IMG/VR virus record: IMGVR_UViG_3300036785_000259
Coordinates: 1-28,613 of that record
Length of the DNA stretch: 28,613 bases
Direction: 5' to 3' (one strand)
From: a virus
Positions within the stretch are counted from its first letter, which is position 1; the number at the start of each line of letters is the position of its first letter. The notes under the pieces are model-generated. The model was not told the DNA's origin. It did no database searches and saw only the letters and a list, made by a program, of their open reading frames with translations. Below are positions 1 through 22,366 of this stretch, piece by piece. The position numbers and the translations under genes were made by a program.

Positions 1-616
1 CGCTGATCCTGAGCGGCCGACAGGCTTCGACGACTTGCCGGGTCATGTCGATGTCGGCGCTCGATGGCGTCGGATCGCCGCTGGGGTGGTTGTGGCAAAG
101 GATGATGGCGCTGGCGGACGTCTCCAGGGCGCGGCGCACCACCTCGCGCGGGTAAACCGGGGCGTGATCCACTGTGCCGATGTTCATCACCTCGTCGGCG
201 ATTAGCTGGTTCTTCTTGTCGAGGAAGAACACCCGGAATTGCTCGCGCGCCTCCTGGGCCATCGCGACGCGGACATAGGCGAGCAAGGCGGACCATGAGG
301 AAATGACCGGGCGCCGCTTGGCCTGGTTGCGGGCGGCGCGCACCATCAGTTCATGGATGATCGCCAGTTGCCGGGCGGCGGCCTCGCCGGCCAGGCGCCG
401 CACCTCGGGGCCATCGGCGCCGAAGATTTCCGCCAGGCCGCCAAAGCGGGCGAACAGGGCGGTGGCGGCGGCGCCGCCGACAAGTTCACCCAACAGGGGG
501 CGATCCGGGGCGGCGGTGATCGGGCCTAGCGCGCCCCGGCCTGGGAAGTCGATCACGCGCGCCGGTTCGGCCGTGGCGGCCTGGGGGTCGTCGGGGAAGT
601 CGAAAGTCTGCTGCAT
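1..616 (-). CDS. RadC-like JAB/MPN-domain protein (3' end outside window)
   Basis: Partial gene reading leftward off the window; 205 codons are visible from the ATG at 616. About the last 90 visible residues match the RadC/JAB fold: a Glu in AQEAREQF, then the metal-site signature HNHPSGDP with its two His at residues 175 and 177, followed by PSSAD and an Asp that completes the JAMM-type motif (HxHPSGDPxPSxxD). RadC-family proteins are often carried by mobile elements and phages; despite the old 'DNA repair' name their activity is not firmly established. The N-terminal 100 residues are poorly recognisable and rich in Ala, Pro and Gly. The gene lies 25 nt downstream of an intergenic repeat copy and is the last visible gene of the leftward cluster. 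Family assignment is confident, function is not. Confidence 0.88.
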   Translation of the reverse strand, partial: MQQTFDFPDDPQAATAEPARVIDFPGRGALGPITAAPDRPLLGELVGGAAATALFARFGGLAEIFGADGPEVRRLAGEAAARQLAIIHELMVRAARNQAKRRPVISSWSALLAYVRVAMAQEAREQFRVFFLDKKNQLIADEVMNIGTVDHAPVYPREVVRRALETSASAIILCHNHPSGDPTPSSADIDMTRQVVEACRPLRIS

Positions 617-640
617 TGAAGGCGGGTCCTGTTCCGTGGC

Positions 641-723
641 GCCGGGACCTATTCCCGGCGGGTGAGCGATGGCGCTCGGGATCGGGGCGCGGCCGAAACC
701 GCGCCCCGCGCCCCAGCGTCAGG
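641..723 (-). repeat. Intergenic hairpin repeat, copy 1
   Basis: The copy nearest the left edge of a three-copy intergenic element (others at 1059-1143 and 1898-1980). Read on the minus strand it begins at the stop codon of the 719-1036 gene. It contains a 54-nt block identical in all copies (670-723) that folds as GGGGCGCGG-TTTCGG-CCGCGCCCC. After a 13-nt variable linker comes the invariant GGGAATAGGTCCCGGC (641-656), which can itself form a small hairpin. The RadC-like start codon is 25 nt further on. No T-tract follows the strong stem. Confidence 0.85.
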
Positions 724-1036
724 CCTGGGCGACAAGCCAGGGCTTGGGCTCGCCCTGGTAGTCGGTCCAGAAGGCGTCCACCTGGGCCTGGGCGGCGTCG
801 CGCTCGCGCTCCAGCTTTCGCGCCCTTGCCAGGGGCGCCAGGGCCGAATCGTCGCCGGCGGTGGCCAGGGCCTCCAGGGCGACAACGCGGGCCTTCCAGC
901 GGGCCACGTTCAAGCCGTTGGCGTAGGCGCCCGCGCTGTCGTCGAAGTCCTCCTCAATCGGGGCGGTCCCGCCAAGCGGGACGCCATGAATTGCGATCTT
1001 CCAGAGGGCGGCGCGGAGAATGTCTGTCGAGTTCAT
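719..1036 (-). CDS. Hypothetical protein (105 aa)
   Basis: No family recognised. The protein begins MNSTDILRAALWK and has a charged, probably helical C-terminal half (KLERERDAAQAQVDAFW, roughly residues 74-90) that could form a short coiled coil. No signal peptide, membrane segment or Cys cluster is seen. The start is supported by an AAGGAA ribosome-binding site 9 nt upstream on the minus strand. Both ends touch intergenic repeat copies: copy 2 ends 23 nt before the ATG and copy 1 starts at the stop codon. This isolates it as its own cistron within the leftward cluster. It is probably a phage accessory or early protein. Confidence 0.7.
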   Translation of the reverse strand: MNSTDILRAALWKIAIHGVPLGGTAPIEEDFDDSAGAYANGLNVARWKARVVALEALATAGDDSALAPLARARKLERERDAAQAQVDAFWTDYQGEPKPWLVAQA

Positions 1037-1058
1037 AAGTCCAGTTCCTTGATGATCG

Positions 1059-1143
1059 GCCGGGACCTATTCCCGGCCGCGAACGCGCGTGGCGCTCGGG
1101 ATCGGGGCGCGGCCGAAACCGCGCCCCGCGCCCCAGCGTCAGG
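1059..1143 (-). repeat. Intergenic hairpin repeat, copy 2
   Basis: Second copy of the three-copy element. The 54-nt invariant block is at 1090-1143 and includes the stop codon of the 1139-1375 gene. A 15-nt variable linker follows, then the invariant GGGAATAGGTCCCGGC (1059-1074 read on the minus strand), here extended to GGCCGGGA-ATAGG-TCCCGGCC with an 8-bp stem. The next start codon (1036) is 23 nt downstream. Placement between stop and ribosome-binding site matches the other copies. Confidence 0.87.
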
Positions 1144-1375
1144 GCCTGGGCGCCAGGGCGTCGGCGAATAGCTGGGCGATCTGCATCAGGGAATAGACCG
1201 ATCCATCAACCACAAAGCCCGCCTGATCGTGGCAAAGGTCATAGAGTTGGGTGGACCCCCAGCTGGGCCGCTCGCGCGCCTTCTCAATGAAAAAAGGCAG
1301 GCGGGCGGCGCCAAGGAACAGGCGCCAGGAAGGTTCCAGGCCTTCGCGGGCCTCGCGCTTTTTGGCGACCTTCAC
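1139..1375 (-). CDS. Hypothetical protein (78 aa)
   Basis: No family recognised. The N-terminus is basic (MKVAKKREAREG), followed by a mixed region and an Asp/Leu-rich C-terminus. No motif, signal peptide or transmembrane segment is evident. Its ATG overlaps the stop of the preceding gene in an ATGA arrangement (1372-1375), so it is probably translationally coupled to it. Repeat copy 2 begins exactly at its stop codon. Support comes from tight packing and uninterrupted reading in the direction of the cluster rather than from homology. Confidence 0.65.
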   Translation of the reverse strand: MKVAKKREAREGLEPSWRLFLGAARLPFFIEKARERPSWGSTQLYDLCHDQAGFVVDGSVYSLMQIAQLFADALAPRP

Positions 1376-1635
1376 GCCGTCACCTGGGCGGCGTTCCAGG
1401 CCGCTTGCAGGCGGCGGTGACTGTCCAGGCCAAAGCGGTCTGAGGTTTCGAGGCGCTGATAGAGACAGGCGAAATATTCGAGGTGGTGGGCAGTCATCGC
1501 CTCGCCGATCCTCTGATAGCGCCAGAATTCGCGGGCGCGTGACCGAACATCGGCCATGTTGCGGAAGGGAAGGTCAGTCTCGTCGCGGGCGACTGCTCCG
1601 CAGGCGTCGGTGAGTTCTCGTGTCCAGATGGTCAT
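1372..1635 (-). CDS. Hypothetical protein (87 aa)
   Basis: No family recognised. An 87-residue soluble protein (begins MTIWTRELTDACG) rich in Arg, Ala and aromatic residues, with a central helical stretch around FWRYQRIGEAMTAHHLEYF. No metal motif or membrane segment is seen. The start is supported by AAAGGACCCC about 5 nt upstream on the minus strand, the same ribosome-site style as the gene starting at 3138. It sits 14 nt after the stop of the 1650-1874 gene and overlaps the next gene by 4 nt. It is likely part of a small three-gene block (1874 to 1139) bounded by repeat copies 3 and 2. Confidence 0.7.
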   Translation of the reverse strand: MTIWTRELTDACGAVARDETDLPFRNMADVRSRAREFWRYQRIGEAMTAHHLEYFACLYQRLETSDRFGLDSHRRLQAAWNAAQVTA

Positions 1636-1649
1636 TTGTCGGGGTCCTT

Positions 1650-1874
1650 TCAGGAAGTGGCGTCGGTGAGGTCGATGTTGCTGAGGTCGTCGGCGGCCTG
1701 TTGCAAGGCGTCGGCCGCCTCCTGGGCGCGGTCGCCGCGCTCGCCCTGCTGGATGCTCTCGGGCATGTTGTCGTGAAAATCCTGTTCCTCGCTGGCGGCG
1801 GTGGAAAGGATGTCCATCGCCTCGGCGATCATGGCCTCGGCGCGCTTGATGTCGGCTCTGCGGGCGTTGTTCAT
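1650..1874 (-). CDS. Small acidic helical protein (74 aa)
   Basis: No family recognised. It begins MNNARRADIKRAEAM and is dominated by Ala, Asp, Glu and Gln, giving a predicted long helical, strongly acidic protein; the last 30 residues (EAADALQQAADDLSNIDL) have coiled-coil character. A longer in-frame reading exists back to 2006, but it would run through intergenic repeat copy 3. The ATG at 1874, 24 nt downstream of that repeat as in the other two cases, is therefore preferred. No strong Shine-Dalgarno sequence is visible before this start. Possibly a regulatory or inhibitor-type early protein, but that is speculation. Confidence 0.68.
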   Translation of the reverse strand: MNNARRADIKRAEAMIAEAMDILSTAASEEQDFHDNMPESIQQGERGDRAQEAADALQQAADDLSNIDLTDATS

Positions 1875-1897
1875 TTGGGTCGTTCTCCGATGATCCG

Positions 1898-1980
1898 GCC
1901 GGGACCTATTCCCAGCCGTCGAGCGTTGGCGCTCGGGATCGGGGCGCGGCCGAAACCGCGCCCCGCGCCCCAGCGTCAGG
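1898..1980 (-). repeat. Intergenic hairpin repeat, copy 3
   Basis: Third copy of the element. The 54-nt invariant block is at 1927-1980 and contains the stop codon of the 1976-2134 gene. A 13-nt linker follows, then the invariant GGGAATAGGTCCCGGC (1898-1913 on the minus strand). The stem of the small hairpin has one changed flanking base relative to copy 2. The start codon at 1874 lies 24 nt downstream. On the minus strand the order is always stop codon, strong hairpin, linker, small hairpin, ribosome site, start. Confidence 0.86.
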
Positions 1981-2134
1981 GCCTGCGCTTTGCCGCGCGC
2001 TCGCACTCGGCGCGGGTGGGGTAAAGGCGGCTGTCAAAGTGGCCGTCCGGGGTCGTGTAGCGCCAGCCTGCGGCGCCATCCTTCCAAACAAAGTTCGGCT
2101 CTTTCGGCGGTTGCCATGCGGGTTTGGCGTTCAT
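1976..2134 (-). CDS. Small hypothetical protein (52 aa)
   Basis: A 52-residue protein (begins MNAKPAWQPPKEPNFVWK) with several aromatic residues in a WRYTTPDGHFDSRLYPTR core, which could form a small beta hairpin or sheet. No family recognised. The ATG at 2134 overlaps the stop of the SprT-like gene as ATGA (2131-2134), indicating coupled translation. A longer in-frame reading to 2257 would lie entirely inside the SprT gene and is not favoured. Intergenic repeat copy 3 starts at its stop codon. Confidence 0.65.
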   Translation of the reverse strand: MNAKPAWQPPKEPNFVWKDGAAGWRYTTPDGHFDSRLYPTRAECERAAKRRP

Positions 2135-2742
2135 TGGTCGTCGTCTCCTTCGTCCTGGGTTTCGGCCTTCATCGCGCCGTGATTGGGGCAATGCGGGGCG
2201 CCGGCCTCGTCCAGCCATTTGCGGGTGACGCGGGCGACATAGCCACACTCGCCGCACTCCACCTTCACAAGCCGGGTGGTCTGTTTCTTGCGGCCTTCGT
2301 CCGGGTTGACCTTGCCGGCGGGGTAGGCGCCGACGCGCTCGGCGTAGCGTTTAAACGTCGCGGCAAGTTCGGGGCCGGCCTGGGTGGCGGTCATCTTGCC
2401 TTCCAGGCCGACAGCCAGGGCGGCCTTGCGAAAGGGCGCCTTGTGGCCATGCTCAACCCCGACCGCCGCATGGCAAAGCTCGTGAATGAGCGTCGCCAGG
2501 ATTTCGACGGAGTCGCTGAGAACGGGGCTCACCACGATTTCAAAGTGTCCATCGGATGATCGCTGGGCCGGCCAACATTGGCCAATCGCGCGCCGGGTTC
2601 CGAACGCAAAGCCGATGCTCACCCGGACCTTGTTGGGGACCGGGTGGGCGGCCTGGGCGAGCAAGTCGGCGCAATGGACGGTCGCGGCTTCAAGCCAAGC
2701 GTGGCGCGCTTCGCTGGTCGCCTTGGGGGTGTTCTGTTTCAC
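2131..2742 (-). CDS. SprT-like zinc metalloprotease-fold protein
   Basis: A 203-residue protein from a GTG start at 2742, chosen because GGAGG lies 8 nt upstream and the GTG overlaps the stop of the preceding gene (GTGA). The zincin signature HELCH is at residues 87-91, followed by GVEHGHKAPF with further His residues (98, 100) suited to be the third metal ligand, as in the SprT/Spartan family. A C-terminal zinc-ribbon-like module follows (CGECGYV, then CPNHG, roughly residues 160-193), also typical of SprT proteins. Spartan family members act on DNA-protein crosslinks; phage SprT-like proteins have no settled function. Protease activity is inferred from the motif. An in-frame ATG further upstream (2910) would overlap the zinc-knuckle gene and is rejected. 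Confidence 0.88.
   Translation of the reverse strand: MKQNTPKATSEARHAWLEAATVHCADLLAQAAHPVPNKVRVSIGFAFGTRRAIGQCWPAQRSSDGHFEIVVSPVLSDSVEILATLIHELCHAAVGVEHGHKAPFRKAALAVGLEGKMTATQAGPELAATFKRYAERVGAYPAGKVNPDEGRKKQTTRLVKVECGECGYVARVTRKWLDEAGAPHCPNHGAMKAETQDEGDDDQ
2349..2356. repeat. GTTTAAAC octamer inside sprT-like gene
   Basis: One of five copies of the palindrome GTTTAAAC in the window, here within coding sequence. Its flank GTAGCGTTTAAACG is shared with the intergenic copy at 4060. Confidence 0.6.
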
Positions 2743-2954
2743 AGACAGACCCTCCGCATCTGGTGACGGTTGAAGGCGCGGTTTCGATGGATGTCCGCCC
2801 ATGATTGGCGGCCTGATCCGCGACAGGCGTTGCAGCGGCCTTCGTGCGCCGGCTGGCCGTTCACCACGGCGCCCCAGCCGTAGCGCCCGGACCCTCGACA
2901 CTTTTCGCAAGCGCCTGGGCGGTCGTTGGGGACTGAAAAATCAGTGAAGGCCAT
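2739..2954 (-). CDS. Twin CxxCxGxG zinc-knuckle protein (71 aa)
   Basis: A small protein with two DnaJ-type CxxCxGxG motifs: CEKCRGSG and CNACRGSG, separated by about 20 residues, enough to bind one structural zinc as in the DnaJ cysteine-rich domain. The rest is a short N-terminus (MAFTDFSVPNDRPG) and a basic C-terminal tail. The ATG at 2954 is preferred over a longer in-frame start at 2990 because it begins 5 nt after the preceding stop instead of running into that gene. It overlaps the SprT-like start by 4 nt. Proteins of this type are frequent in phages, mostly uncharacterised. A second gene of this kind lies at 9734-9979 on the other strand. Confidence 0.8.
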   Translation of the reverse strand: MAFTDFSVPNDRPGACEKCRGSGRYGWGAVVNGQPAHEGRCNACRGSGRQSWADIHRNRAFNRHQMRRVCL

Positions 2955-2958
2955 CGGA

Positions 2959-3138
2959 TCAGGCCTCCGCAAAGTAGCGGGTGGCGACATCGGCGCGGAT
3001 GGTGTCGCTGATGATGTCGGACTGTTCGAGCAAGTCGATCAGCCGGATCGCCCACTGGGCGGCCTGGGCGTGCTTGCCGCAATCCTTGAAGGCGCAGGCC
3101 TTGGCTAGAGCGCGGCTGACTTCGGTTCGGTCGATCAT
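2959..3138 (-). CDS. Small hypothetical protein (59 aa), first gene of the leftward cluster
   Basis: A 59-residue protein starting MIDRTEVSRALAKACAF and ending at the TGA at 2959-2961. It is helical by composition, with two Cys (CAFKDC) and a central segment AAQWAIRLIDLLEQ. No family recognised. The start has AAAAGGACCCC immediately upstream on the minus strand, an excellent ribosome site of the same style as the 1635 gene. It is the promoter-proximal gene: a TTGACA/TATTCG promoter lies about 50 nt upstream. The other reading frame across this region (2861-3082) has an implausible Arg/His-rich composition and no ribosome site. Confidence 0.72.
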   Translation of the reverse strand: MIDRTEVSRALAKACAFKDCGKHAQAAQWAIRLIDLLEQSDIISDTIRADVATRYFAEA

Positions 3139-3188
3139 TCGGGGTCCTTTTCCCTTGGCGCCGTCTGCGTCATTGCATCGGCTAACGC

Positions 3189-3217
3189 CGAATAGCGGTC
3201 GTTTAAACGGGTGTCAA
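3189..3217 (-). promoter_or_regulatory. Sigma70-like promoter for the leftward genes
   Basis: On the minus strand TTGACA (3217-3212) is followed by a 17-nt spacer and TATTCG (3194-3189). The -35 is a perfect consensus match, the spacing is ideal, and the -10 is weak at its 3' half, as is common in alphaproteobacteria. The predicted start of transcription is near 3181, about 40 nt before the ATG at 3138. The spacer carries the palindrome GTTTAAAC (3201-3208), an attractive operator position. Confidence 0.55.
3201..3208. promoter_or_regulatory. GTTTAAAC palindrome in leftward promoter spacer
   Basis: An 8-bp palindrome lying between the -35 and -10 of the leftward promoter. A protein bound here would block RNA polymerase. 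Operator role is inferred from position and from the repetition of the octamer elsewhere. Confidence 0.4.
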
Positions 3218-3327
3218 CCCGGACCCTGTTTCATCCGTCATGCCCGGACCCTGGGGCATAATGAGAAAGCGGACATCGGATGGCCTGGCGCGGCGGCCAT
3301 CCATCGGTTTAGCCCGCGATTTCAATC

Positions 3328-3437
3328 ATCGGATGGATGGACGGACGGATGGCGCATCGCGCGCCTGGTGATCTGTTTTGCCGGGTGGTTTTCGCTATCG
3401 CGAGACTAGGGGCCATCCGTCCGTCCATCCATCCGAT
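3328..3437. repeat. Perfect 26-bp inverted repeat in the divergent region
   Basis: The left arm (3328-3353) and right arm (3412-3437) are exact reverse complements over 26 bp, separated by 58 nt. Each arm is made of GGAT/GGAC-type short repeats (ATCGGATGGATGG, then ACGGACGGATGGC). Related shorter copies occur near 3274, 3294 and 3481. The spacer contains TTGCCG and GCTATCGC, which could be a weak rightward promoter. The structure could be a paired operator, a terminase recognition site or a large hairpin in RNA. Confidence 0.85.
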
Positions 3438-3521
3438 CAATGATCGACAGAGGGAAAAGCCGCGAAAAGGGCCTAGAATGATCGGATCGATGGATGGCCG
3501 GGCATTAAAAATGGGTCGGAA

Positions 3522-4058
3522 ATGGCGGACCTGGTTCTAACCCCTCCAGGGGAGGCCACCCGGCCGAGGCGGGGGCGGCCGCCTGGGCGGCGCAACCGGC
3601 GGTCGATAGACCTCGCTCGCTACATCGAGGCGCGATTTTCGGGGCTGACGCCTGGGCAGGTGCTGGCGGAAATGGTCATGCCAACCCCGGCCGATCTGCG
3701 GCGCGCCAGGGGGTCGATGATTCAGGCGATGGCGGACAAGGCGGCGGAGATTCAGCGGGCCTTGCACCTCGGATCGCGGGCCGATGGCTTCGCGGTGCTG
3801 TCGCGGCTGCTGATTGAACTCGCACCCTACGTTCACCAACGCCGCGCCCTGGCGCCGGCCGAGCCGGCCGAACCGACCTTGGCGAGGGTGATCGTGCTGG
3901 CGGCCGGCGAGAACGCCGATGGCGTTGATTTCTCAGGGGAAAATGACGGCGACCTGTTCCAAGTCTCCCAGCCGATGTCTCCCAGTGATAGCCAAGCGGC
4001 TGAATTCGCTGAGGATTTGCCACCCGATGCCGATGATGGCGAATTACCTGAGCCGTAG
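3522..4058 (+). CDS. terS: Putative small terminase subunit
   Basis: A 178-residue protein. The N-terminus is strongly basic (RPRRGRPPGRRNRRSIDLARYIEARFSGLTPGQVLAEM, about residues 15-50), compatible with a DNA-binding helix-turn-helix; the middle is helical (ADKAAEIQRALHLGSRADGFAVLSRLLIEL); and the C-terminus is very acidic. This basic-to-acidic layout and the position directly before the large terminase are the case for a small terminase, which recognises the packaging start site and stimulates the large subunit. No decisive sequence signature is seen, so a packaging-linked DNA-binding protein of another family remains possible. The ribosome site is weak (GGTCGGAA). It follows the divergent region with the 26-bp inverted repeat, a candidate binding site for it. 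Confidence 0.6.
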   Translation: MADLVLTPPGEATRPRRGRPPGRRNRRSIDLARYIEARFSGLTPGQVLAEMVMPTPADLRRARGSMIQAMADKAAEIQRALHLGSRADGFAVLSRLLIELAPYVHQRRALAPAEPAEPTLARVIVLAAGENADGVDFSGENDGDLFQVSQPMSPSDSQAAEFAEDLPPDADDGELPEP

Positions 4059-4059
4059 C

Positions 4060-4067
4060 GTTTAAAC
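4060..4067. promoter_or_regulatory. GTTTAAAC palindrome after terS
   Basis: This octamer begins 2 nt after the terS stop and is part of a perfect 14-bp palindrome, AGCGTTTAAACGCT (4057-4070). No clear promoter elements overlap it. It is likely a protein-binding site by analogy with the copy at 3201. Confidence 0.4.
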
Positions 4068-4161
4068 GCTTCGCAAGAGAGAAGCACCCGCGCGCGGCGG
4101 CGGCGAAGCCGCCGCACTGAGCGAACCCACCTCCGACGCCGACCCCCCCAGCCGACCCCCA

Positions 4162-4204
4162 CCCCCCCCTCCGGGCCTCGCGGGCGCGACGCATGGGGGT
4201 TTTT
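4162..4204 (+). terminator. Possible terminator in the terS-terL gap
   Basis: A C-run (4162-4169) can pair with GGGGG (4195-4199), which is directly followed by TTTTT (4200-4204). The loop of about 25 nt is long, though G+C-rich and itself foldable, so this is not a classic terminator. The preceding C-tracts (4143-4169) give the minus strand several long G-runs able to form a G-quadruplex. Confidence 0.35.
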
Positions 4205-4227
4205 CCGTCAGGCATAGTGGTTTCGGG

Positions 4228-4238
4228 TCATCCGACGC
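4228..4238 (+). promoter_or_regulatory. TCATCCGACGC motif ahead of terL
   Basis: One of four exact copies of this 11-mer on the plus strand. It ends 54 nt before the terL start. See the copies at 9947, 15997 and 28205. Confidence 0.45.
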
Positions 4239-4292
4239 GGGTGCGGTGCGCCGACACTACAGGAAGGGAAAGGGTCGGGGTCAGGAGCCGCC

Positions 4293-5888
4293 GTGGCCGC
4301 AATCGTCCGCGCCGATCAGGGCCGTCTGGCCGTTTGGACCTACGCCGGGCCGAAGGCGGAGGCCTACGAAAATTGCACCGCCCCGGTGGCGATGATCGAG
4401 GGACCATTGGGTGGGGGTAAATCGACGGCGAGCGCGCACCGCTGTCTCCGCATCGCAACCTGGCAGCACCCTAGCCCTGTGGACGGGATTCGCAAGGCGC
4501 GGATCGTCTGTGTTGCCCCTACCTACCGGCGCGCCTGGGACCAGGTGATCCCGACATTCTTTGAAGTCTATCCGAGGGACGGCGACGGCGTGCTGTGGCG
4601 GGCCGCGCGCGGCGATCCGGCCGACTACACCTGGGACACGAAGGTGCGGTTGAAGGTCGGCGGCCCCTGGTGGCGGGTGCATCTGGAGGTGCTGTTTCGG
4701 GCCGTGTCCGAGGGCCAGACCATCGAGGATTTCTTCCGGGGCTTCCAGTTCACCGCCATGTGGCTCCCCGAGGCGGACACCAACAAAGACCTCGACAGCA
4801 TCCTGTCGCTGGGCGCGAGCCGCGCCGGGCGCTATCCCTTGCCGCCGGATCGGCCGCCCGAGGCCCCTGACGCCTATGTGGGCGTGTTCGGCGACAGCAA
4901 CGCCCCGGTGATCGGGACGCCGTTCTTCCGCCGGTTCCACGAATATAAGATGCCCGATGGCGGCAAGGCGCCGCGCAGCGATCGGCTGATCAAGCAGCCC
5001 TCGGGCTTCAGCCCGCACGCCGAAAACCTGCAAAATCTCAATCGCATCCGCAAAAATTTCTACGCCTACCAGATGCAGCAGCTGTCGAAATACGACATCC
5101 GCCGCCTACTGATGAATCAGCCGGGCTTCAGCCGCGAGGGCGAGCCGGTCCACTTCAATTTTGATCCAGACACGCACCTTGTCGATAACCTGACGGTCGA
5201 TCCGTTCGGGATGGTGATCATTTCCATCGACGCCGGCAGCGGGACGCTGAAGCCGGCAGCGGTGTTCTGGCAGCGATCCGGGCGCCAGTGGCGCGCCCTG
5301 GCGGAAATCTACCTGCCAGACGGTATCCAGATGGGGACCCAGGACTTCTGCATCGAAGTCCGGCGCACCCTGGCGCGGCGATTCCACGAGATCCGCCGGC
5401 CCACGGCGCTGATCGCCATCGACCCGGCGGCGCTGAGCCCCCAGGCGGCCAGCCAATACACGACCGCCCAGGAAATCCAGCACCACACGCAGATCGAGGC
5501 GATTCCGGCGCCCCGGAATGACCGCTCGAGCCGGTTCGGGGCGCTCGACAGGCTGTTCACCGCCAGCGTCGGGCCAGGTGAGCCGGCGATGGTTATCGAC
5601 CGGGGCGAGTGCCCCGGCCTGGTGGGCGGCCTGGCCGGTGGCTACCACTATCGGCGGATCGGGCAGATTCTGAGCCCGCAACCGGTCAAGAATTCCTACA
5701 GCCACGTCTGCGAGGCGGCCGAATATGGCCCGCTGACCCTCGACGGCATGGACCCGCGCGAGGGCAGCTTCATCCGACCGGACGACGCCGATGGTTACGC
5801 TCAGGCGGTCGGACTCTACGAGGATGGCCGCTTTGAGGCGGCCCAGACGTGGCGCCCGGCGCGGTCCAGCGACGGAGGCCCCTGGTAA
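4293..5888 (+). CDS. terL: Large terminase subunit (ATPase-nuclease)
   Basis: A 531-residue packaging motor. The ATPase domain has a Walker A GPLGGGKST (residues 37-45) and a Walker B-like strand FTAMWLPEAD with the catalytic Glu at 160. The C-terminal RNase H-like nuclease has acidic residues in IISIDAGSG (Asp313) and LIAIDPAA (Asp377), and a late NSYSHVCEAAEYG segment typical of this domain. It cuts concatemeric DNA and pumps it through the portal into the prohead. The length compares with T7 gp19 (586). The start is GTG at 4293 with AGGAG 5 nt upstream. The 234-nt gap from terS is long for this compact arm and contains candidate control sequences. Its stop overlaps the next start (TAATG). 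Confidence 0.93.
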   Translation: MAAIVRADQGRLAVWTYAGPKAEAYENCTAPVAMIEGPLGGGKSTASAHRCLRIATWQHPSPVDGIRKARIVCVAPTYRRAWDQVIPTFFEVYPRDGDGVLWRAARGDPADYTWDTKVRLKVGGPWWRVHLEVLFRAVSEGQTIEDFFRGFQFTAMWLPEADTNKDLDSILSLGASRAGRYPLPPDRPPEAPDAYVGVFGDSNAPVIGTPFFRRFHEYKMPDGGKAPRSDRLIKQPSGFSPHAENLQNLNRIRKNFYAYQMQQLSKYDIRRLLMNQPGFSREGEPVHFNFDPDTHLVDNLTVDPFGMVIISIDAGSGTLKPAAVFWQRSGRQWRALAEIYLPDGIQMGTQDFCIEVRRTLARRFHEIRRPTALIAIDPAALSPQAASQYTTAQEIQHHTQIEAIPAPRNDRSSRFGALDRLFTASVGPGEPAMVIDRGECPGLVGGLAGGYHYRRIGQILSPQPVKNSYSHVCEAAEYGPLTLDGMDPREGSFIRPDDADGYAQAVGLYEDGRFEAAQTWRPARSSDGGPW

Positions 5889-6364
5889 TGAAAAACTGGC
5901 TTGTGGGGGCTCTCCTGGGCCTCGGAGTGGCCATCCTGGCGCTGGTCGGCGCTCCAGCGGCGCAGGCCGCCGCCACGAACGTCTATGGCCTCGATCCGGC
6001 CAACGGCAACGCGATCTGCCTTGTGGCGGCGGCGGGATCGTCGCCAACCTGCATCCTGCCGACGACCGGGGGCGGGACCGGGGGCGGCGGGGCGGCCATT
6101 CCAGGCAATTTCACGCCCAATCAGGTGACGTGCGGCACCGCCGCAACCCTGATCGTCGCCTCGCGCAGCGGGCGCCAGCTGCTCTCCATCGTCAACACGA
6201 CCGCCACGCCCATCTATGTCGGCGGATCGGCGGCGGTGACGGTCCTGACCGGCCAGCTGCTCCCCGGCATCATCGGGGCGAGCATGACCGTCCCCTATTC
6301 GGGCGCGCTCTACTGCATCGTGGCCTCGGCGCCATCGGCGGTGACGGAAGCCGAGATTTACTGA
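5888..6364 (+). CDS. Sec-signal protein with phage beta-domain (158 aa)
   Basis: Begins with a textbook Sec signal peptide: MKNW, a hydrophobic core (LVGALLGLGVAILALVG) and an APAAQA-A cleavage site near residue 27. A Gly/Thr linker (TGGGTGGGG) follows, then a domain of about 80 residues ending RQLLSIVNTTATPIYVGGSAAVTVLTG and SGALYCIVAS. That pattern resembles small beta domains often found in phage head or fibre proteins. Four Cys remain after cleavage, suiting an oxidising periplasm. The start at 5888 overlaps the terL stop and has GGAGG 9 nt upstream. The gene is 1 nt before the large secreted protein, so the two are probably made together. Function unknown; it may be a partner or cap of the following protein. 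Confidence 0.8.
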   Translation: MKNWLVGALLGLGVAILALVGAPAAQAAATNVYGLDPANGNAICLVAAAGSSPTCILPTTGGGTGGGGAAIPGNFTPNQVTCGTAATLIVASRSGRQLLSIVNTTATPIYVGGSAAVTVLTGQLLPGIIGASMTVPYSGALYCIVASAPSAVTEAEIY

Positions 6365-6365
6365 C

Positions 6366-9300
6366 ATGCGGCTGATCGCGAGCCTCATCGCGGCGCTGGC
6401 GCTGAGCGGGGCAGCGCAGGCGCAGAAGCTGGGCGTTTCCTCGCCGACCTCGCCGTTTGTCGGCAAGGTGATCGGGATCAGTCTGCCGAACGGCCTCAGC
6501 GGCCCGACCGGCGTGGTGACGGCGATCACCGTCTCCAGCGCCAACTGGTCATCGCCCACGGACCTGCTGCCGAACACCCAGTATTCCAGCAGCTGGACGG
6601 CGGATGTCACCCTGTCGAACATGGCCCCGGCGGGGGTGACGACCGCCTATGCGTTCGGGGCGCCCAGCCCGTCGAACAATAAGCTGGCCTTCACCGCGAC
6701 GTCGCCCGGCTACACCTCGGCGGCGGCCCCGACGACGGTGAACCGGACGATCTACGCCACCTCGTGGCTCAGGCAGGTGTGGCCGAACTACACCCTCCCC
6801 ACGGAGCGGGCGAACGGGGGCAATGCCGAGATTGCGCTGACGCTCAACGATTTCGTCTATTCGGCCGACGTGCTTTCGACGGCGACCGTGGGGGCCGGGC
6901 TCTACACCTCGGGGTCGGCGAGCCTGGCGGCGACCGGCGTGACGGTGACGAACAATTCGACGCTGGCGTTTCCGCGTCCCATCGGGGTCTGGCTCACGGA
7001 ACCTGGGCGGCGCTACGACGGAACCGCCCCGGCGGTGGTGGAATTCTTCGCCGCCCACGCCTTCGCCCAGGGCCGCTCCCCGGTCGCGGCGGTGGTGTTC
7101 ACGGCGACGGACGGGGCGGCCCACAGCGTCTCCCACACTGTCTCCGTGCAGACGCCCAGCACCCGCCAGCTTTCGACCAGCTGCACGGCGACCAACGGCT
7201 CGCCGACGCTGACCGGGTGCGCCTCGACGGCCGGGTTCCTGCCGGGGATGCGGGCCACGGTCCTGGGCATCCCCGGCCAGCCGATCATCCTCTCCACCAC
7301 GCCGACCAGCCTGACCTTCGGGGTGACGAACCTCAACTGCACGACGACGCTCAACAGCGGCGACATCACCCTCACCAACGCGGCGGTGGGCCTGGGGCAA
7401 GGGCTGGCGGACGGGGCTTTCGTCGGGGCCTCGATCAGCGACGCCAACATCACCACGCCCGCCGGAACCGCGCCGATCACCTCGGCGACGGTGACAGCGG
7501 ATGTGACCAATGTTTCCGGCAAGGCGACGGCGGCCAAGGTCCACACGAGCGCGACCGGCGTGACCGCCGCGACCAATGCCGCCTGCACGGTCAATCAGAA
7601 TTTCCAGGGGACGACCGGGACGGTGACTGTCACCCTGGGCAACCCGGTCCCGGTCTATGCGGCGACGTTCACGACCGCCGATCTGGCGACCCTGAACGAT
7701 GGCGTGATCGCCTTCCGCGCCAGGGCCTATCCGAACATCGGCAACGTCATCCTCGACACCCAGGGCGGAGCCGATGGAACCGGCGTCGATTGGAACGGGG
7801 TGGCCTTCAACACCTTCGGCACCGACATCAGCGCCAACCTCCACAACCTCTGGGCCTACAAGGACGCGGGCCTGAACTACCGGCCGGTTTATGCCTGGGT
7901 GTCGGGGACGGCGGGGGGCGCGCCTGCGGTTTCGACCAGTGCGGCGGACCCCGGATCGGGGGCCTATTTCGCCTCGGTTTCGACGGCGGTGGCGGCGCTG
8001 AAAGCCTATTACAACACGACCCCGACCATTCACCACAACGATGCCAACGGCGGGATCATCTGTCTCTTGGCGGCGGGTTCGCCCTACTCGGGGTTCGGCG
8101 GCACGATCTACACGTCCTATGCGGCGAACGAACCGCCGGGGGTGATCACCTCGGCGCTCGCGGGCGCCAGCTGCCCGGCGAGCGGGGCGGCGGGGTCGGA
8201 CATCACGGTGACGGTGACGCACAATGCGACGACGCTTAATTCGGTGGTCGCGGCCTTCACCCACGTCAACAATCTCACCCTCGCGGACACGGCCCAGCTG
8301 ATCCAGGGGCTCGACGGCCAGAACACGACCTCGATGCCCACCTATTCGGCGATTTTCGAGGGCGACATCCTGCACCCGATCAGCGGCGGCAATCCGATCA
8401 TCTACAAGCTGGGCGCGTGGTGGCTCTACAACAACCTGATCAATGGCTCGACGGCGAGCGGGAGCGTGCTGACGCCGTTGAGCGTGACCGGCGAGCCCGC
8501 GCTGGTGCTGGGGAACACGATTGTCTGCGGGACCTTCGCCACCGGCAACGTGATGGCCTGGGACAGCCTCAATGACCTCGGAAACGATGCGTGGGCGTGC
8601 GCCCAACAAGACACGAAGGGACCGGAGGCGCTTTCCTACGTCGTCAGGCCCCTGAGCAGCGTCAAGGCGTTCAACCGGATCATGGGGGAAACCAACACGT
8701 CGGGCTTCTGCGTGACCAGCTGCCAGAATGAAGCCTTCGTCGCGAATATCTTTGAGGTGATCAACGACAGCGTGGGCCAGCCCGCCTGGAGGATGAGCCC
8801 CGACAACACCAACACCCCGGCCTCGAACATCGTGCGCCAATACAACACCGGGGCAGGCAACCGCTTCAACGGCAACTATCTTGAAGGCATCCCGACCAAT
8901 ACGGCGACGGGCTTGGCGACCGGCGGCGCGCTTCCTGCGGGGACCTACTTTTTCCAGATCACCTATGCGGTGAAATCGGCGCCCAGCCCGGAAACTTCGA
9001 CCGATGGCGTCAATATCAATTCGGTCGTGGTGGGTGGAACGGGCGCGGGCTCGATCAACCTGCAAATCCAGAGCGACCCGAATTACGTCGCCTACGTCTA
9101 TGCGGACACGGTGAACCCGCCCGCGCACTTGGCGACGATCAACGGCGCCGACGCCAAGCAGCTGGCGATGGGGCAGGCCTACGTCATCACTGGCCTGGGA
9201 AGCGCCCAGGCCGCGCCGGTCATCAATGTCGGCGGGATCACCGGCCACAACGAACAGAAGTTCTCGTTCTTCCAACGATTCAACATCGACGAAAACTACA

Positions 9301-9737
9301 ACACCAAGAACGACACCTATGGCAGCTCGGGGGCGACATCATCGGGCGGTCGGGTGGGGAATTGGGCGTCGCGGTGGTTCGTCTCCGTCATCGGCAATAT
9401 CTCGGCGACCGGCACGCTGATCGGCAGCGGCTTCAGCCCGACCTCGGGCTATGGCGAAATCAACTGCTACCTCTGCACGTCAAACCCGGCCAATTCGCAA
9501 AGCGACCTGTCGTGGGTCAAATACAAGTCTGACCGCTCCGCTGGCGCCAGCGGCACGATCCCGGTTGCGCCCGCGCTCAATCTCGGCGAGGGCGACTATT
9601 GCCCCGACAGTTCGGTGACGAACGCCGGATCGGTCGTGCCCTCGGGCTTGGCCGCGTCTCCCACGGACATCAGCGGCGCGGTGCGGCTCAACAACGGCGC
9701 GGGCTGGGCCGGGGCCTACGAGACGGGGTGCCTGTGA
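6366..9737 (+). CDS. Large Cys-rich Sec-signal protein, putative beta-helix (1123 aa)
   Basis: The N-terminus MRLIASLIAALALSGAAQAQ is a classic cleavable signal peptide (cut near residue 20). The mature protein is rich in Thr, Ser, Asn, Gly and Val and looks all-beta. The N-terminal 400 residues resemble repeated beta-sandwich modules. The middle (about 460-880) has the short-strand, Asn/Gly-turn texture of right-handed parallel beta-helices seen in tailspikes and polysaccharide lyases (NVILDTQGGADGTG, HNLWAYKDAGLNYRP, WWLYNNLINGS). About 14 Cys are spread along it, far more than in the structural genes around it, suggesting disulfides outside the cytoplasm. No catalytic residues are assigned. 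It may be a secreted enzyme or adhesin, or a tailspike with an odd N-terminus. It starts 1 nt after the previous stop and overlaps the next gene by 4 nt. Confidence 0.75.
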   Translation: MRLIASLIAALALSGAAQAQKLGVSSPTSPFVGKVIGISLPNGLSGPTGVVTAITVSSANWSSPTDLLPNTQYSSSWTADVTLSNMAPAGVTTAYAFGAPSPSNNKLAFTATSPGYTSAAAPTTVNRTIYATSWLRQVWPNYTLPTERANGGNAEIALTLNDFVYSADVLSTATVGAGLYTSGSASLAATGVTVTNNSTLAFPRPIGVWLTEPGRRYDGTAPAVVEFFAAHAFAQGRSPVAAVVFTATDGAAHSVSHTVSVQTPSTRQLSTSCTATNGSPTLTGCASTAGFLPGMRATVLGIPGQPIILSTTPTSLTFGVTNLNCTTTLNSGDITLTNAAVGLGQGLADGAFVGASISDANITTPAGTAPITSATVTADVTNVSGKATAAKVHTSATGVTAATNAACTVNQNFQGTTGTVTVTLGNPVPVYAATFTTADLATLNDGVIAFRARAYPNIGNVILDTQGGADGTGVDWNGVAFNTFGTDISANLHNLWAYKDAGLNYRPVYAWVSGTAGGAPAVSTSAADPGSGAYFASVSTAVAALKAYYNTTPTIHHNDANGGIICLLAAGSPYSGFGGTIYTSYAANEPPGVITSALAGASCPASGAAGSDITVTVTHNATTLNSVVAAFTHVNNLTLADTAQLIQGLDGQNTTSMPTYSAIFEGDILHPISGGNPIIYKLGAWWLYNNLINGSTASGSVLTPLSVTGEPALVLGNTIVCGTFATGNVMAWDSLNDLGNDAWACAQQDTKGPEALSYVVRPLSSVKAFNRIMGETNTSGFCVTSCQNEAFVANIFEVINDSVGQPAWRMSPDNTNTPASNIVRQYNTGAGNRFNGNYLEGIPTNTATGLATGGALPAGTYFFQITYAVKSAPSPETSTDGVNINSVVVGGTGAGSINLQIQSDPNYVAYVYADTVNPPAHLATINGADAKQLAMGQAYVITGLGSAQAAPVINVGGITGHNEQKFSFFQRFNIDENYNTKNDTYGSSGATSSGGRVGNWASRWFVSVIGNISATGTLIGSGFSPTSGYGEINCYLCTSNPANSQSDLSWVKYKSDRSAGASGTIPVAPALNLGEGDYCPDSSVTNAGSVVPSGLAASPTDISGAVRLNNGAGWAGAYETGCL

Positions 9738-9979
9738 CCGACCCGCGCCAGCGGCGCTATGAGGCGAAGCGCCGGGCCTGGCGGCGGGCGCATCCGCTGG
9801 CGGACGTGCCGCCTGGGCCGCCCGCCCTGCGCCTGACGCCCTTCCCAGGGCCGTGCGCGCGGTGCGCGGGCTCGGGGAAGGTCCCGGCCACGGCCATCGA
9901 CCTCGTGGGCGTGTGGATCACTTGCCCGGCCTGCGGTGGGGAGGGCTCATCCGACGCCGTGGTTGCGACCGTAGGCTGA
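9734..9979 (+). CDS. Zinc-knuckle protein with two CxxC-type motifs (81 aa)
   Basis: A small protein from a GTG at 9734 that overlaps the previous stop (GTGA). The N-terminus is highly basic (TDPRQRRYEAKRRAWRRAH). It then has CARCAGSG and CPACGGEG, a DnaJ-like CxxCxGxG pair separated by about 19 residues, able to hold one zinc. An upstream in-frame start at 9599 would lie inside the preceding gene and is rejected. It is similar in layout to the leftward-strand gene at 2739-2954, though in the late operon. The basic tail suggests nucleic-acid contact, but no function is known. Confidence 0.72.
   Translation: MTDPRQRRYEAKRRAWRRAHPLADVPPGPPALRLTPFPGPCARCAGSGKVPATAIDLVGVWITCPACGGEGSSDAVVATVG
9947..9957 (+). 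promoter_or_regulatory. TCATCCGACGC motif ahead of the small pre-portal gene
   Basis: Second copy of the 11-mer, inside the 3' end of the zinc-knuckle gene and ending 26 nt before the ATG at 9984. It shares 15 bp, GCTCATCCGACGCCG, with the copy at 28205 and is followed by a short hairpin (GGT-TGCG-ACC). Confidence 0.45.
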
Positions 9980-9983
9980 TCCG

Positions 9984-10184
9984 ATGTCGCAATGGTTCTC
10001 GCCCAAGGTCCCCCAGCCGATTGCGCCGCCGAACCCGGCGGACGCCTCCAACCGGGCCAACATGGCGCTCGTCAATCAGCTGGCGACCCAGGGCTACAAC
10101 GCCGACGTGATCCCAGGCAGTAGCTCGGGCGGGACGGTGGCCACAGGCGCGCCGCGCATGTCCACTCTGACGGGCTTGGGTTAG
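9984..10184 (+). CDS. Small protein preceding the portal (66 aa)
   Basis: Begins MSQWFSPKVPQPIAPPNPADASNRANMALVNQ and continues as a Gly/Ser-rich tail (SSSGGTVATGAP). It is Pro-rich and probably disordered, with no motif recognised. Small Pro-rich proteins of this kind often sit just before the portal in podovirus-type gene orders; some may be minor head proteins. The ribosome site is weak. It is 4 nt upstream of the portal start and 26 nt downstream of a TCATCCGACGC copy. Confidence 0.68.
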   Translation: MSQWFSPKVPQPIAPPNPADASNRANMALVNQLATQGYNADVIPGSSSGGTVATGAPRMSTLTGLG

Positions 10185-10188
10185 GCGC

Positions 10189-11967
10189 ATGGCGGACGGT
10201 GAGGTTCGGGACCGCAACGACCGGATTCAGGAGTATCTGGCCGAATTCGAGGCTCACCGCTCGGAGCGCATCGAATATGACGTGAAGTGGCAGCTGGTCA
10301 GCGACTACATCCTGCCCAGGCGCGATTTCACCGTCACCCTGCGGCCCAACCAGATCAGGCCGCACCGCGTCACCTCGTCGCTGGCGACCAACGCCAATTC
10401 GCGGATGTCGGCGATGCTGCTGACCTACGCCATCGACACGTCCCGCCCGTTCATGATGCCCAACGTCAAGCACGGCCTGGGCCTGGTCGGACGCAGCACG
10501 CAGCTGTCGGACGCGGCGATCAACTACCTCGACGGCGTGCAGGACATCGCCTTCGACGCGACGCTGCGGCCCAAGGCCAACTACCTGATGCGGATGACGG
10601 CGATGCTGCAGGAATTCTGCAGCTTCGGCCCCGGCATCACCTTCACCGGGCGCCAGCCGGGTTTCGGGCCGATTTTCACCTCGCGGCCGGTCAATGCCTG
10701 CTGGTGGGGGATCAACGAGAACGAGGACATCGACAACCTGCACTACCGTTTCAGACTGCCGATGTATCGCGTGCGGGACCGCTGGCCGGAGACGTTCGCC
10801 AAGCTCTACCCCGAATATGACGACCGCCAGGACACCCTGCTCAGCTACGTGGACATCCTGCAGGTGACGCGGCCCCGGCGGGGCGGCCGGCGGGGCGCGG
10901 TCCCGTCAGGCAAGTCTTTCGAGCATGTCTCGATCTGCATGGAGGGGGGGCGCGAGGCGCTGCTCGATGAAAGCGGCTTCGATGACTTCCCCTACAACGT
11001 GTTCCGCTTCAACCCGCGTCCGGGCACGGCCTACTGCGAGGGGCCGGGGTGCCAGGTGCTGCCCGACGTGATGGTGCTGAATCACCTGATCCAGGCCATC
11101 GAGAACGCCGCCAGCCAGAAGGCGGAGCCGGCCGTCGCCATGCCGGCGCGGATGTTCGCCAAGAACGTGCTGGACCGGCGGCCGGGGGCGATCAACACCT
11201 ACAATCCGGCGGGCCTGGGCCTGCAGCGGGCCGATCAGGCGATCATCAAGCTCGATCTGACCGGCGATCCGACGATGGCGATGCAATACGCCAAGGAGCT
11301 GATGGACAACATCCGCGAGGGCTACATGTGGGACGTGTTCCAGCTTCGCGAGGCGGGCGATATGACCGCCGAGGAAGTCAACGCCCGCATGGACCTCAAC
11401 ATGCGCGGGGCGGCCTCTGTCGTCTCCTACATGGGCGCGGAAATGTCGCGCCAGGCTGACCGGATTCTCGACATTCTGGTGAAGGATGGGAAAATCCCGC
11501 CGCCGCCGCGTGAGCTTTCCGGGGCGAGCGTCGATTGGGAATATGCCGGGCCGCTGCAGATCGCCCAGCTGACCAAGAACGCCGACAACATCATGCAGAT
11601 GATCAACGCCCGCGCCCTGGTCATGCAGCAAGGGCCGGAAGGGCAGGCGGCGGCGATGGCCATCGACCTCGAAACTTGCCTGCGGGTGCTGCACGACTAC
11701 AAGGGCGCGCCGCCGGGGATTCAGAACAGCCACGCCAAGGTCGAGGCCTATCGGCAGGCGATGCAGCAGGCCCAGGCCCAGGCCCAGGGGGCGGACAACT
11801 TCGCCAAGACCGCCAAGGGCGCGTCCGACGCCTCCAACGCCGCCTCGACGGCGATGGGCGCGATCAAGGACTACGCTGGCGCCCCCGGTGGCGCAGCGCC
11901 TGGTGGCGGCGGCCCGGCCCCGCAAGCCCCGTTCGCGCCGGCCGCGCCCTTCGCCCAGGCGGCGTGA
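10189..11967 (+). CDS. Portal protein (head-to-tail connector)
   Basis: A 592-residue protein of the podovirus head-tail connector family (T7 gp8 type, 536 residues). Diagnostic stretches are the N-terminal RSERIEYDVKWQLVSDYILPRRDF, the conserved GINENEDIDNLHYRFRLPMYRVRDRW region (about residues 168-193), and the DDFPYNVFRFNPRPGTAYCEGPGCQVLPDVMVLNHL segment (about residues 265-300), which is typical of this family. The C-terminus after residue 520 is a Gln/Ala and then Gly/Pro-rich tail (repeated QAQAQAQ, APGGAAPGGGGP), probably flexible. Twelve copies form the ring through which DNA enters and leaves, with TerL docking outside and the tail tubular protein below. The start overlaps nothing upstream (4-nt gap) and its stop overlaps the next ATG. 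Confidence 0.92.
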   Translation: MADGEVRDRNDRIQEYLAEFEAHRSERIEYDVKWQLVSDYILPRRDFTVTLRPNQIRPHRVTSSLATNANSRMSAMLLTYAIDTSRPFMMPNVKHGLGLVGRSTQLSDAAINYLDGVQDIAFDATLRPKANYLMRMTAMLQEFCSFGPGITFTGRQPGFGPIFTSRPVNACWWGINENEDIDNLHYRFRLPMYRVRDRWPETFAKLYPEYDDRQDTLLSYVDILQVTRPRRGGRRGAVPSGKSFEHVSICMEGGREALLDESGFDDFPYNVFRFNPRPGTAYCEGPGCQVLPDVMVLNHLIQAIENAASQKAEPAVAMPARMFAKNVLDRRPGAINTYNPAGLGLQRADQAIIKLDLTGDPTMAMQYAKELMDNIREGYMWDVFQLREAGDMTAEEVNARMDLNMRGAASVVSYMGAEMSRQADRILDILVKDGKIPPPPRELSGASVDWEYAGPLQIAQLTKNADNIMQMINARALVMQQGPEGQAAAMAIDLETCLRVLHDYKGAPPGIQNSHAKVEAYRQAMQQAQAQAQGADNFAKTAKGASDASNAASTAMGAIKDYAGAPGGAAPGGGGPAPQAPFAPAAPFAQAA

Positions 11968-13487: not shown

Positions 13488-14459
13488 ATGGCCGCAGAAG
13501 ATTCAGTCCTCGCCGAATATAGCCAGGGCTTTCGCGCCAACCTGAACCTCGCGCCGCAACAGCGCGACAGCCGCCTGCTGGCGGCGGTGGATGGCTCCCT
13601 CAGCTACGACACGCCCGGCGAAATGTTCAACGCCGACGACGTGCAGATCACCGACCCGCAGCCGCGCCAAGGGCGCGCCGGGGCGACCCCCGACAGTTTC
13701 CCCAGCTTCGTGCGCCGCGTGGGCGTGTTCGCCCCGTTCGAGGACAGCAAGTGGCTGGATGACGTGGACAAGGCCCGCGAGTTGGTGGACCCGACCACGA
13801 AGGTGATGGCCGCCATGATGGCGGGCCGCTATCGGGCCATCGACCGGCTGATCCTGCAGGCGGGGATCGGGTCCGCCAGCGGGATGGTCAACAACACCCC
13901 AGGCGCCGCCTCGGCGCTGACGCAGACGCCGCTCCCGGCCGCGCAGATCGTCGCGGCGAGCGATGTCTCCTATGCCCACGACGCCGAAATCGTGCCGACC
14001 AACGGCTCGCAATACGGCATGAGCGTGGGCAAGCTGATCCACGCCAAGCAGCTGGTGGAGGAAAGCGAGCTTGAGGGGGAATATCACTTCGCCGCTGCTG
14101 CGGAACAGATCGCCGACCTGCTGCGCCGCACGCCCACGACCTCGCGCTACTATTCGGATGTCCAGGCGCTCGCCAGCGGCAAGATCGACAAGTTCCTGGG
14201 GTTCAACTTCCATCGGGTGAACAAGACCCTGTTCTCGACCTTCGTGGGCCACGATGGCGTCACGCCCGTTCGCCAGTGCATGGCCTGGGTGGAGGATGCG
14301 ATCATCTATCGCGGCCGTCCGATCACCGATGCGCGCATCTGGATCAGGTCGGACCGGCGCGGCATCCCGCAAGCCTACTACAGCCTCGAACACGGTTGCG
14401 TCCGCCGCTATGACACTCCGGTGGTCGAAGTCGATTGTTACGAAGGCGCGCCCTACTAG
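13488..14459 (+). CDS. Major capsid protein
   Basis: A 323-residue protein of podovirus coat length (T7 gp10A is 345). The N-terminus is typical of such coats: MAAEDSVLAEYSQGFRANLNLAPQQRDSRLLAAVDG. The middle contains the HK97-like pattern of long helix and beta regions, including a DDVDKARELVDPTTKVMAAMMAGRYRAIDRLIL segment (about residues 88-121) conserved in this group. A late WVEDAIIYRGRPITDARIWIRSDRRGIPQAYYSLEHGCVRRYDTPVVEVDCYEGAPY stretch is also typical of phage coats. It would form the icosahedral shell around scaffold and core. The gene has its own leader and is followed by a probable decoration gene 11 nt on. The assignment rests on position and on these patterns. Confidence 0.85.
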   Translation: MAAEDSVLAEYSQGFRANLNLAPQQRDSRLLAAVDGSLSYDTPGEMFNADDVQITDPQPRQGRAGATPDSFPSFVRRVGVFAPFEDSKWLDDVDKARELVDPTTKVMAAMMAGRYRAIDRLILQAGIGSASGMVNNTPGAASALTQTPLPAAQIVAASDVSYAHDAEIVPTNGSQYGMSVGKLIHAKQLVEESELEGEYHFAAAAEQIADLLRRTPTTSRYYSDVQALASGKIDKFLGFNFHRVNKTLFSTFVGHDGVTPVRQCMAWVEDAIIYRGRPITDARIWIRSDRRGIPQAYYSLEHGCVRRYDTPVVEVDCYEGAPY

Positions 14460-22300: not shown

Positions 22301-22366
22301 CGCAATTACCTGGTCAAGGTATTCCATCACGCCGCCGACTATCTCCGGGGTCAGCCGAATGGCTGA
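19355..22366 (+). CDS. Internal virion protein C-like with C-terminal transglycosylase-like domain
   Basis: A 1003-residue protein at the place of T7 gp15 (747). Residues 1-850 are mainly helical and Ala/Gln-rich, fitting a core tube protein. The last 140 residues look like a lysozyme-superfamily (SLT) domain: a helix ending AIGRTEWSG with candidate catalytic Glu866, then a GAVGSRQMTQPFVNTYAPRLG stretch that fits the SLT 'GA.G..Q..P.t...a..lG' pattern, and LLTALEYFEGPTETGNLMARYG in place of the usual AxxxYNAG region. In T7 this activity lies at the N-terminus of gp16, so here it would be moved to the gp15 analogue. Its role would be local peptidoglycan digestion during DNA ejection. The start overlaps the previous stop (TGATG). 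Confidence 0.72.
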   Translation: MADLPQSLELDPAQGQGLPDAAIRPTDLGFGQATQAIESTSYLATRALMEKARAQREADTRSVATPIANMQAANEADFRETFADPTKAASDGVVGDLSDRINQRIERTAGMEGLTPGQQSAIRTLGAQHATTVLNAATVEHGKYLAQPFVENFEAAQNAKSAAGLQAYSDDMGAREAHLKSNYVVGDPSLGVAMLGAAKDAQAKALQGLDPMTAADVNLAISKEFPQLIARTEDFVVQHGNTALLRTAADNNAAINNGLYNNPNTLQFAIDNTIPKMLGGMDRGTAKDNEESVYRGAVTSAVHGLLYGKGDPDNAAEVAKSHQDMLGDGYQPLMDEITREKMSRTPRTPEQAAAQAQQASAADMHTVEIQTGQAAGPDTDISALSAPEAAKKRQDWATAGAMAAGRGALSGMTNAELAGVKTKPAPNFADFHGDTGAYATASATDLAEKAGVDAEMAARADGARWAMGDEKGGVKSGAGIAGSRGSVVRNTFTAWTAPGQKTPEQYGQQGASYATASLSAQQVAGIANPRVLPTYFAKNLAESVEFAPPDQRLAALQHLAITLNSVPLSTRLADGSMAEPRAMVTRELHAAGLGEANLSAITDFGDDKGRLGKWVSAMNNPQAMKPLPDKNDERAIEGSVRRYMAPEFKATQLLSGGLTTFNQARYDRTLGIAKDIFLNGSAHDPDAAAKAAAADLAPGWSYNADGWRMPTAQAGGFGFSKGVIGSGMDAVAMGASVVRGELAKGDSDKGFPNLNPGTVKKDSTWAASVRSGTWVNTPDGSGLTLMTRGPDGGGQPVHDKYANTQSYSWSQLEDIGRGFQQPQFNPPPHAFVPPTPQHPNPAVSPMPGFSRQSMSKALSYAIGRTEWSGRGPAPDSYAGAVGSRQMTQPFVNTYAPRLGMPTDLDHYRASAADSEKLSDYGLAQISNKYGSQAGASGMLLTALEYFEGPTETGNLMARYGDPRRPGTDLTGWINGLDKAPKGRNYLVKVFHHAADYLRGQPNG

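Follow-up and report, generated by a model that had tools for sequence, protein, structure and literature searches.

Why would a tailed phage carry two genes for apparently exported proteins between its terminase and portal genes? The structural proteins of tailed phages are assumed to fold and assemble in the cytoplasm. The two genes, which we will call S and L, lie in the window (the whole stretch of DNA that we analysed, a virus contig of 28,613 nucleotides, or 28.6 kb; IMG/VR record IMGVR_UViG_3300036785_000259). The virus is a virus of bacteria, and its late module is of the podovirus type, with BcepC6B and BPP-1 as relatives.

Features of the S-L locus (positions are those of the window)
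Feature	Position	Strand	Remarks
TerL, large terminase subunit	4293..5888	+	Left border of the insertion; identified by tblastn
Gene S	5888..6364	+	158 aa, predicted exported small beta-module protein, 4 Cys; Shine-Dalgarno sequence and TAATG coupling
Predicted Sec signal peptide of S	5888..5968	+	27 aa, AQA^A
S residues 80-151, putative small phage beta-module	6125..6340	+	Weak match to phrog_30212
Gene L	6366..9737	+	1123 aa, predicted exported, 14 Cys; no Pfam, PHROG, NCBIfam or PADLOC family
Predicted Sec signal peptide of L	6366..6422	+	19 aa, AQA^Q
L conserved block 1, residues 77-271	6594..7178	+	[W/Y]PN and NNST..P..I..W motifs
L conserved block 2, residues 379-846	7500..8903	+	Solenoid-like core, putative beta-helix
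L conserved block 3, residues 962-1118	9249..9719	+	RFNID..YNTK.D and C-terminal D..G...GAYE
81-aa CxxCxGxG zinc-ribbon-like protein	9734..9979	+	Third gene of the insertion; no signal peptide
66-aa small pre-portal gene	9984..10184	+	Right border of the insertion; identified by position and C-terminal motif
Portal / head-tail connector	10189..11967	+	PF12236 (E = 2e-53), phrog_332
Major capsid protein	13488-14459		PF19821

By tblastn, the window's TerL matches TerL of BcepC6B (31% identity over 87% of the query) as well as 17 other records. Downstream of the capsid gene, tube and internal virion proteins are encoded. S and L had been described in an earlier note on this DNA, and its coordinates, lengths, cysteine counts and junctions for the two genes were all correct. 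The coupling that it reported also stands: TAATG (5886-5890) joins TerL to S, and GTGA (9734-9737) joins L to the next gene. The stop codon of S (6362-6364) is followed by the start of L at 6366, and GGAGG lies 9 nt ahead of the ATG of S. The 81-aa protein has weak matches to DnaJ_CXXCXGXG (the DnaJ central domain) and to Anti-TRAP. A large reverse-strand ORF (6549-9275) was dismissed as a GC-rich shadow frame. Elsewhere in the window, positions 1-3500 hold no convincing genes or PHROG matches, the exception being a possible small terminase gene at 3522-4058. A 916-aa protein (22359-25109) has strong matches to phrog_5143 and phrog_2299, which are both PHROGs of unknown function, and weakly resembles an internal virion protein that carries an endolysin domain.

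To place the locus among its relatives, we used an alignment of three TerL proteins to fetch 80 TerL relatives from IMG/VR. Both genes are present in 29 of the fetched loci, where the gap between TerL and portal ranges from -43 to 992 nt, versus 4283 nt in the window. The 66-aa gene occupies the position of gp04 in BcepC6B and of bbp22 in BPP-1, which makes S, L and the 81-aa gene the additions. This comparison of gene order shows that the three genes are a cargo insertion of roughly 4 kb. The slot itself seems to be a cargo site of this podovirus lineage, because in BPP-1 it is occupied by the GNAT acetyltransferase gene bbp24 (L103 23173-24092) and because two IMG/VR relatives have ORFs there that, judged from sequence, are GNAT-like (L017 2171-2632 and L032 1658-2182). 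In GC and GC3, S and L match the remaining phage genes. In a scan, S-L and its surroundings showed no terminator-like site, and same-strand promoter-like sites were likewise missing there and everywhere before 11468. The late modules of the annotated relatives (BcepC6B, BPP-1, VA-RY-3, TM3_14A and Rollin) lack an exported gene of the S or L type (0/5).

The earlier note had also given both proteins cleavable Sec-type signal peptides. We called signal peptides with a simple rule-based scan for n-h-c organisation and AxA, and both proteins score, while none of 16 other genes in the window does. The predicted signal peptides and cleavage sites, MKNWLVGALLGLGVAILALVGAPAAQA^A for S and MRLIASLIAALALSGAAQA^Q for L, have the canonical n-h-c organisation with AxA. 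The 80 TerL relatives gave 750 ORFs of 150 aa or more, of which only 2 score by the same scan (about 0.3%); one is a genuine analogous gene (in L025, discussed below), and the other seems spurious. (A match in L021 was dismissed as a likely non-gene.) Nor is the signal peptide of L the product of a mis-called start codon, because the frame opens just 21 nt upstream of the ATG. In neither protein did we see a lipobox, a membrane anchor or an outer-membrane domain. Export of S and L, as predicted from their signal peptides, is well supported.

The mature proteins are also rich in cysteine. Together, mature S and L have 18 Cys to 1217 other residues, versus 34 to 6493 in the remaining genes, counted from TerS to the end of the window (2.8-fold, Fisher p = 8e-4). 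Furthermore, across S, L and the analogous or homologous proteins described below, the mature cysteine count is even in all seven exported proteins (4, 14, 2, 10, 10, 8 and 2, the last being the archaeal protein) and odd in all three signal-less relatives (5, 1 and 1). This parity, a pattern that we spotted after the fact, fits disulfide pairing.

What kind of protein is L? It does not match any Pfam, PHROG (including the tail models in Pfam and PHROG), NCBIfam or PADLOC model, and it has no match among PDB sequences; in Pfam, NCBIfam, PHROG and PDB sequence comparisons, it contains no recognised lyase or hydrolase domain. When we compared L to 50,697 phages by tblastn, there was one weak match, to ORF51 of the Cobavirinae phage PQ867845. 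Pairwise, L and ORF51 share three collinear blocks (114-260, 402-579 and 950-1117 of L). With ORF51 as the query, we found a 786-aa protein of the Synechococcus siphophages Ssp-JY42 and Yong-M4-211, and a scan of 85k species genomes, which used two short patterns as the query and may miss members, found a 1079-aa protein in a Pacearchaeota MAG. An alignment of the family (A3) shows three collinear conserved blocks that are common to the members. The leave-one-out profile scores L at 138 bits, versus at most 4 bits for shuffles, and such profiles score the members at 124-186 bits each, versus at most 9 bits. The full-length family is small, with homologues of L in phage Ssp-JY42, the Cobavirinae phage and the archaeon. 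No further members turned up in IMG/VR when the queries were S, L, ORF51, the 786-aa protein of JY42, the small protein of L025 and another alignment (A2), and a search of plasmids found none.

The claim in the earlier note that L is beta-helix-like was not confirmed by domain models. Neither Beta_helix nor DUF1565 has a match in the window, and choice_anch_Q (NF041518) scores 13.3 bits at 9603-9725, below its threshold of 25 bits. When the L profile was compared by hhalign to three beta-helix-type proteins, two were at the level of shuffles; the match to P15 covers the C-terminal part of the profile and is uninformative about the core. AlphaFold gave low-confidence models, because homologues are lacking (pLDDT of 26.6 for L with one homologue and of 40 for S alone). 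Still, the motifs YA.V.G......FATV..A......GGII.L and D..G...GAYE make a beta-helix fold of L plausible. For S, the claim of a C-terminal domain that resembles a phage module held in part: there is a match (phrog_30212), but at E = 1e-3 it is weak.

The homologues of L differ in how they begin and in their surroundings. The 786-aa protein of JY42 and Yong-M4-211 is like L over its length and has a signal peptide. As in the window, a small signal-peptide gene lies directly upstream and the pair is in a late structural cluster; unlike the window's virus, JY42 is a siphovirus, and its pair is located after the tail genes. The upstream protein (138 aa) starts with the signal peptide MNMLKRAALAAACALLCAAPAYS^G and contains a small module with Cys, but it has no detectable homology to S. 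(Directly 3' of the pair, the frame of a 351-aa protein, L010 11971-13026, matches Pfam Beta_helix and has no signal peptide.) ORF51, from a podophage, is a 729-aa protein whose three blocks are collinear with those of L, but it has no signal peptide and 5 Cys. Its gene comes after those for internal virion proteins and ahead of the endolysin gene. Over its first 60 residues, ORF51 has a weak match to gp42 of RIO-1, another Zobellviridae phage, in which gp42 belongs to the structural region. The earlier note had reasoned that close homologues among ordinary tailspikes would speak against a secreted protein. A tailspike has a virion-attaching N-terminal domain and no export signal, unlike L, which starts with a signal peptide; and a single distant, signal-less homologue, ORF51, sits among virion genes, with a candidate role there.

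No BLAST match of L scores higher than the Pacearchaeota UBA73 surface protein (L011 9962-13201; 107 bits, 31% identity), which is also the best match of block 1. It shares the signal peptide. However, it is cellular (its neighbours on the contig are gyrA, gyrB, tsaD and a MoxR operon), it has 2 Cys and a C-terminal extension with a transmembrane anchor, and it has no S partner. Among 147 genomes of the Pacearchaeota phylum, only the starting genome contains a homologue of L, so the gene was probably acquired laterally; gene exchange between phage and archaeon is possible.

A pair of this design is also found in L025/G148, a relative of the window by its TerL. There, just 3' of the capsid genes, a 537-aa and a 681-aa protein with signal peptides flank a signal-less fibre-like gene. 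As with S and L, an exported small-module protein and an exported large protein are encoded in the late region; unlike S and L, the two are separated by one signal-less gene, the insertion site is another one, and homology is not detectable, including between the large protein and L. The earlier note's view that both proteins are exported, which we also predict, is strengthened by this recurrence in JY42 and L025. The design is known from three phages only, at three different sites in the late structural region, and it may be partly coincidence, because we detected no homology among the small proteins of the three phages. The recurring pairs suggest an undescribed route by which phages act outside the cell.

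We propose that S and L are a cargo pair that would be transcribed late, along with the structural genes, as expected from where they are inserted, with TerL on one side and the small pre-portal gene on the other. Both would be exported by Sec, their signal peptides would be cleaved, and disulfides would form in the periplasm. Because the pair lacks an outer-membrane or secretion domain, both proteins would be confined to the periplasm, and lysis would free them. L may be an adhesin-like or glycan-active protein, large and built of three blocks, with a core that recurs in a signal-less phage protein from a tail-gene region and in an anchored archaeal surface protein. S would be its small exported beta-module partner, although contact between the two is a guess. 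Their target would be glycans of the host's surface or matrix, outside the cytoplasm (both the glycan target and any enzymatic activity are guessed), and the effect might be to aid the escape of progeny or to block re-adsorption to debris. Comparisons of genes and proteins show the insertion, the signal peptides, the cysteine enrichment, the family membership and the recurrence of the pair; a depolymerase role for L would have no fold, active site or family in support. Overall, our proposal of a late-expressed, Sec-exported, disulfide-folded, adhesin- or depolymerase-like pair that is freed at lysis and acts on glycans may equally prove right or wrong. The roles named in the earlier note (depolymerase, surface modifier, superinfection barrier or release aid) are candidates that the evidence here does not separate.

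We also considered that S and L might be exported, mature in the periplasm with disulfides, and mount on heads or tails at lysis, with S docking and L serving as a fibre or spike. All of the pairs are housed in structural gene clusters, and the weak resemblance of the S domain to a phage module, the location of the signal-less ORF51 among Cobavirinae virion genes, and a module shared by the 537-aa protein of L025 and a signal-less, capsid-adjacent protein of cyanophage S-SRP01 would all fit. However, tailed phages assemble their virions in the cytoplasm, the literature that we searched contained no precedent for mounting after export, and the L025 phage has a separate 795-aa gene that, judged from its N-terminus, resembles a tail fibre. 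We find such mounting rather doubtful. A broader form of the idea is that some tailed phages make part of their extracellular fibres via Sec. A small beta-module adaptor and a large fibre-like protein would fold in the periplasm with the help of disulfides, and only at lysis would they be mounted on virions or deployed next to them; one core with swapped N-termini would then give virion-mounted, phage-secreted and cell-surface-anchored forms. This too is a tentative idea that we tend to disbelieve.

Another idea is that the pair alters the surface or the periplasm of an infected cell, or of a lysogen, and so keeps further phages out, by superinfection exclusion or by masking receptors. S and L have signal peptides, and known exclusion proteins act in the envelope. 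The TerL relatives BPP-1 and BcepC6B have integrases, as does JY42. But S and L are in a late operon without a promoter of their own in our scan, as noted above they show no lipobox, anchor or outer-membrane domain, and every exclusion protein that we know of is far smaller; we consider this role unlikely. Instead of being export signals, the hydrophobic N-termini could also be retained in ordinary virion proteins, as segments that act on membranes or in assembly. The positions of S and L among structural genes, and of ORF51 among virion genes, are consistent with this. Yet both N-termini have the canonical organisation with AxA, ORF51 lacks the segment altogether, S and L are enriched in cysteine, and the archaeal homologue carries a signal peptide, so this explanation seems very unlikely.

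If our proposal is correct, phages would have a new extracellular arm in the recurring pairs of exported, Cys-paired, fibre-like proteins that are encoded among late structural genes. Such pairs would also be a source of surface-binding proteins that disulfides stabilise. Missing from Pfam, PHROG, NCBIfam and PADLOC, the family of L ties phage cargo to an archaeal surface protein. The exported phage proteins that are already known have mainly lysis or exclusion roles, and our literature search, with little coverage of subscription journals, turned up no account of fibre-like pairs with signal peptides in structural operons. Sec-exported phage endolysins (Lys44 and SAR) and the secreted antiholin RI have been reviewed (PMC6116005). 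Like S and L, as predicted, the Lys44-type and SAR endolysins and RI of T4 are exported by the host's Sec system; unlike them, S and L have no match to lysis families in Pfam or PHROGs, while the endolysins and RI serve lysis. Phage-exported proteins are already known, and the predicted exported, fibre-like kind would be new.
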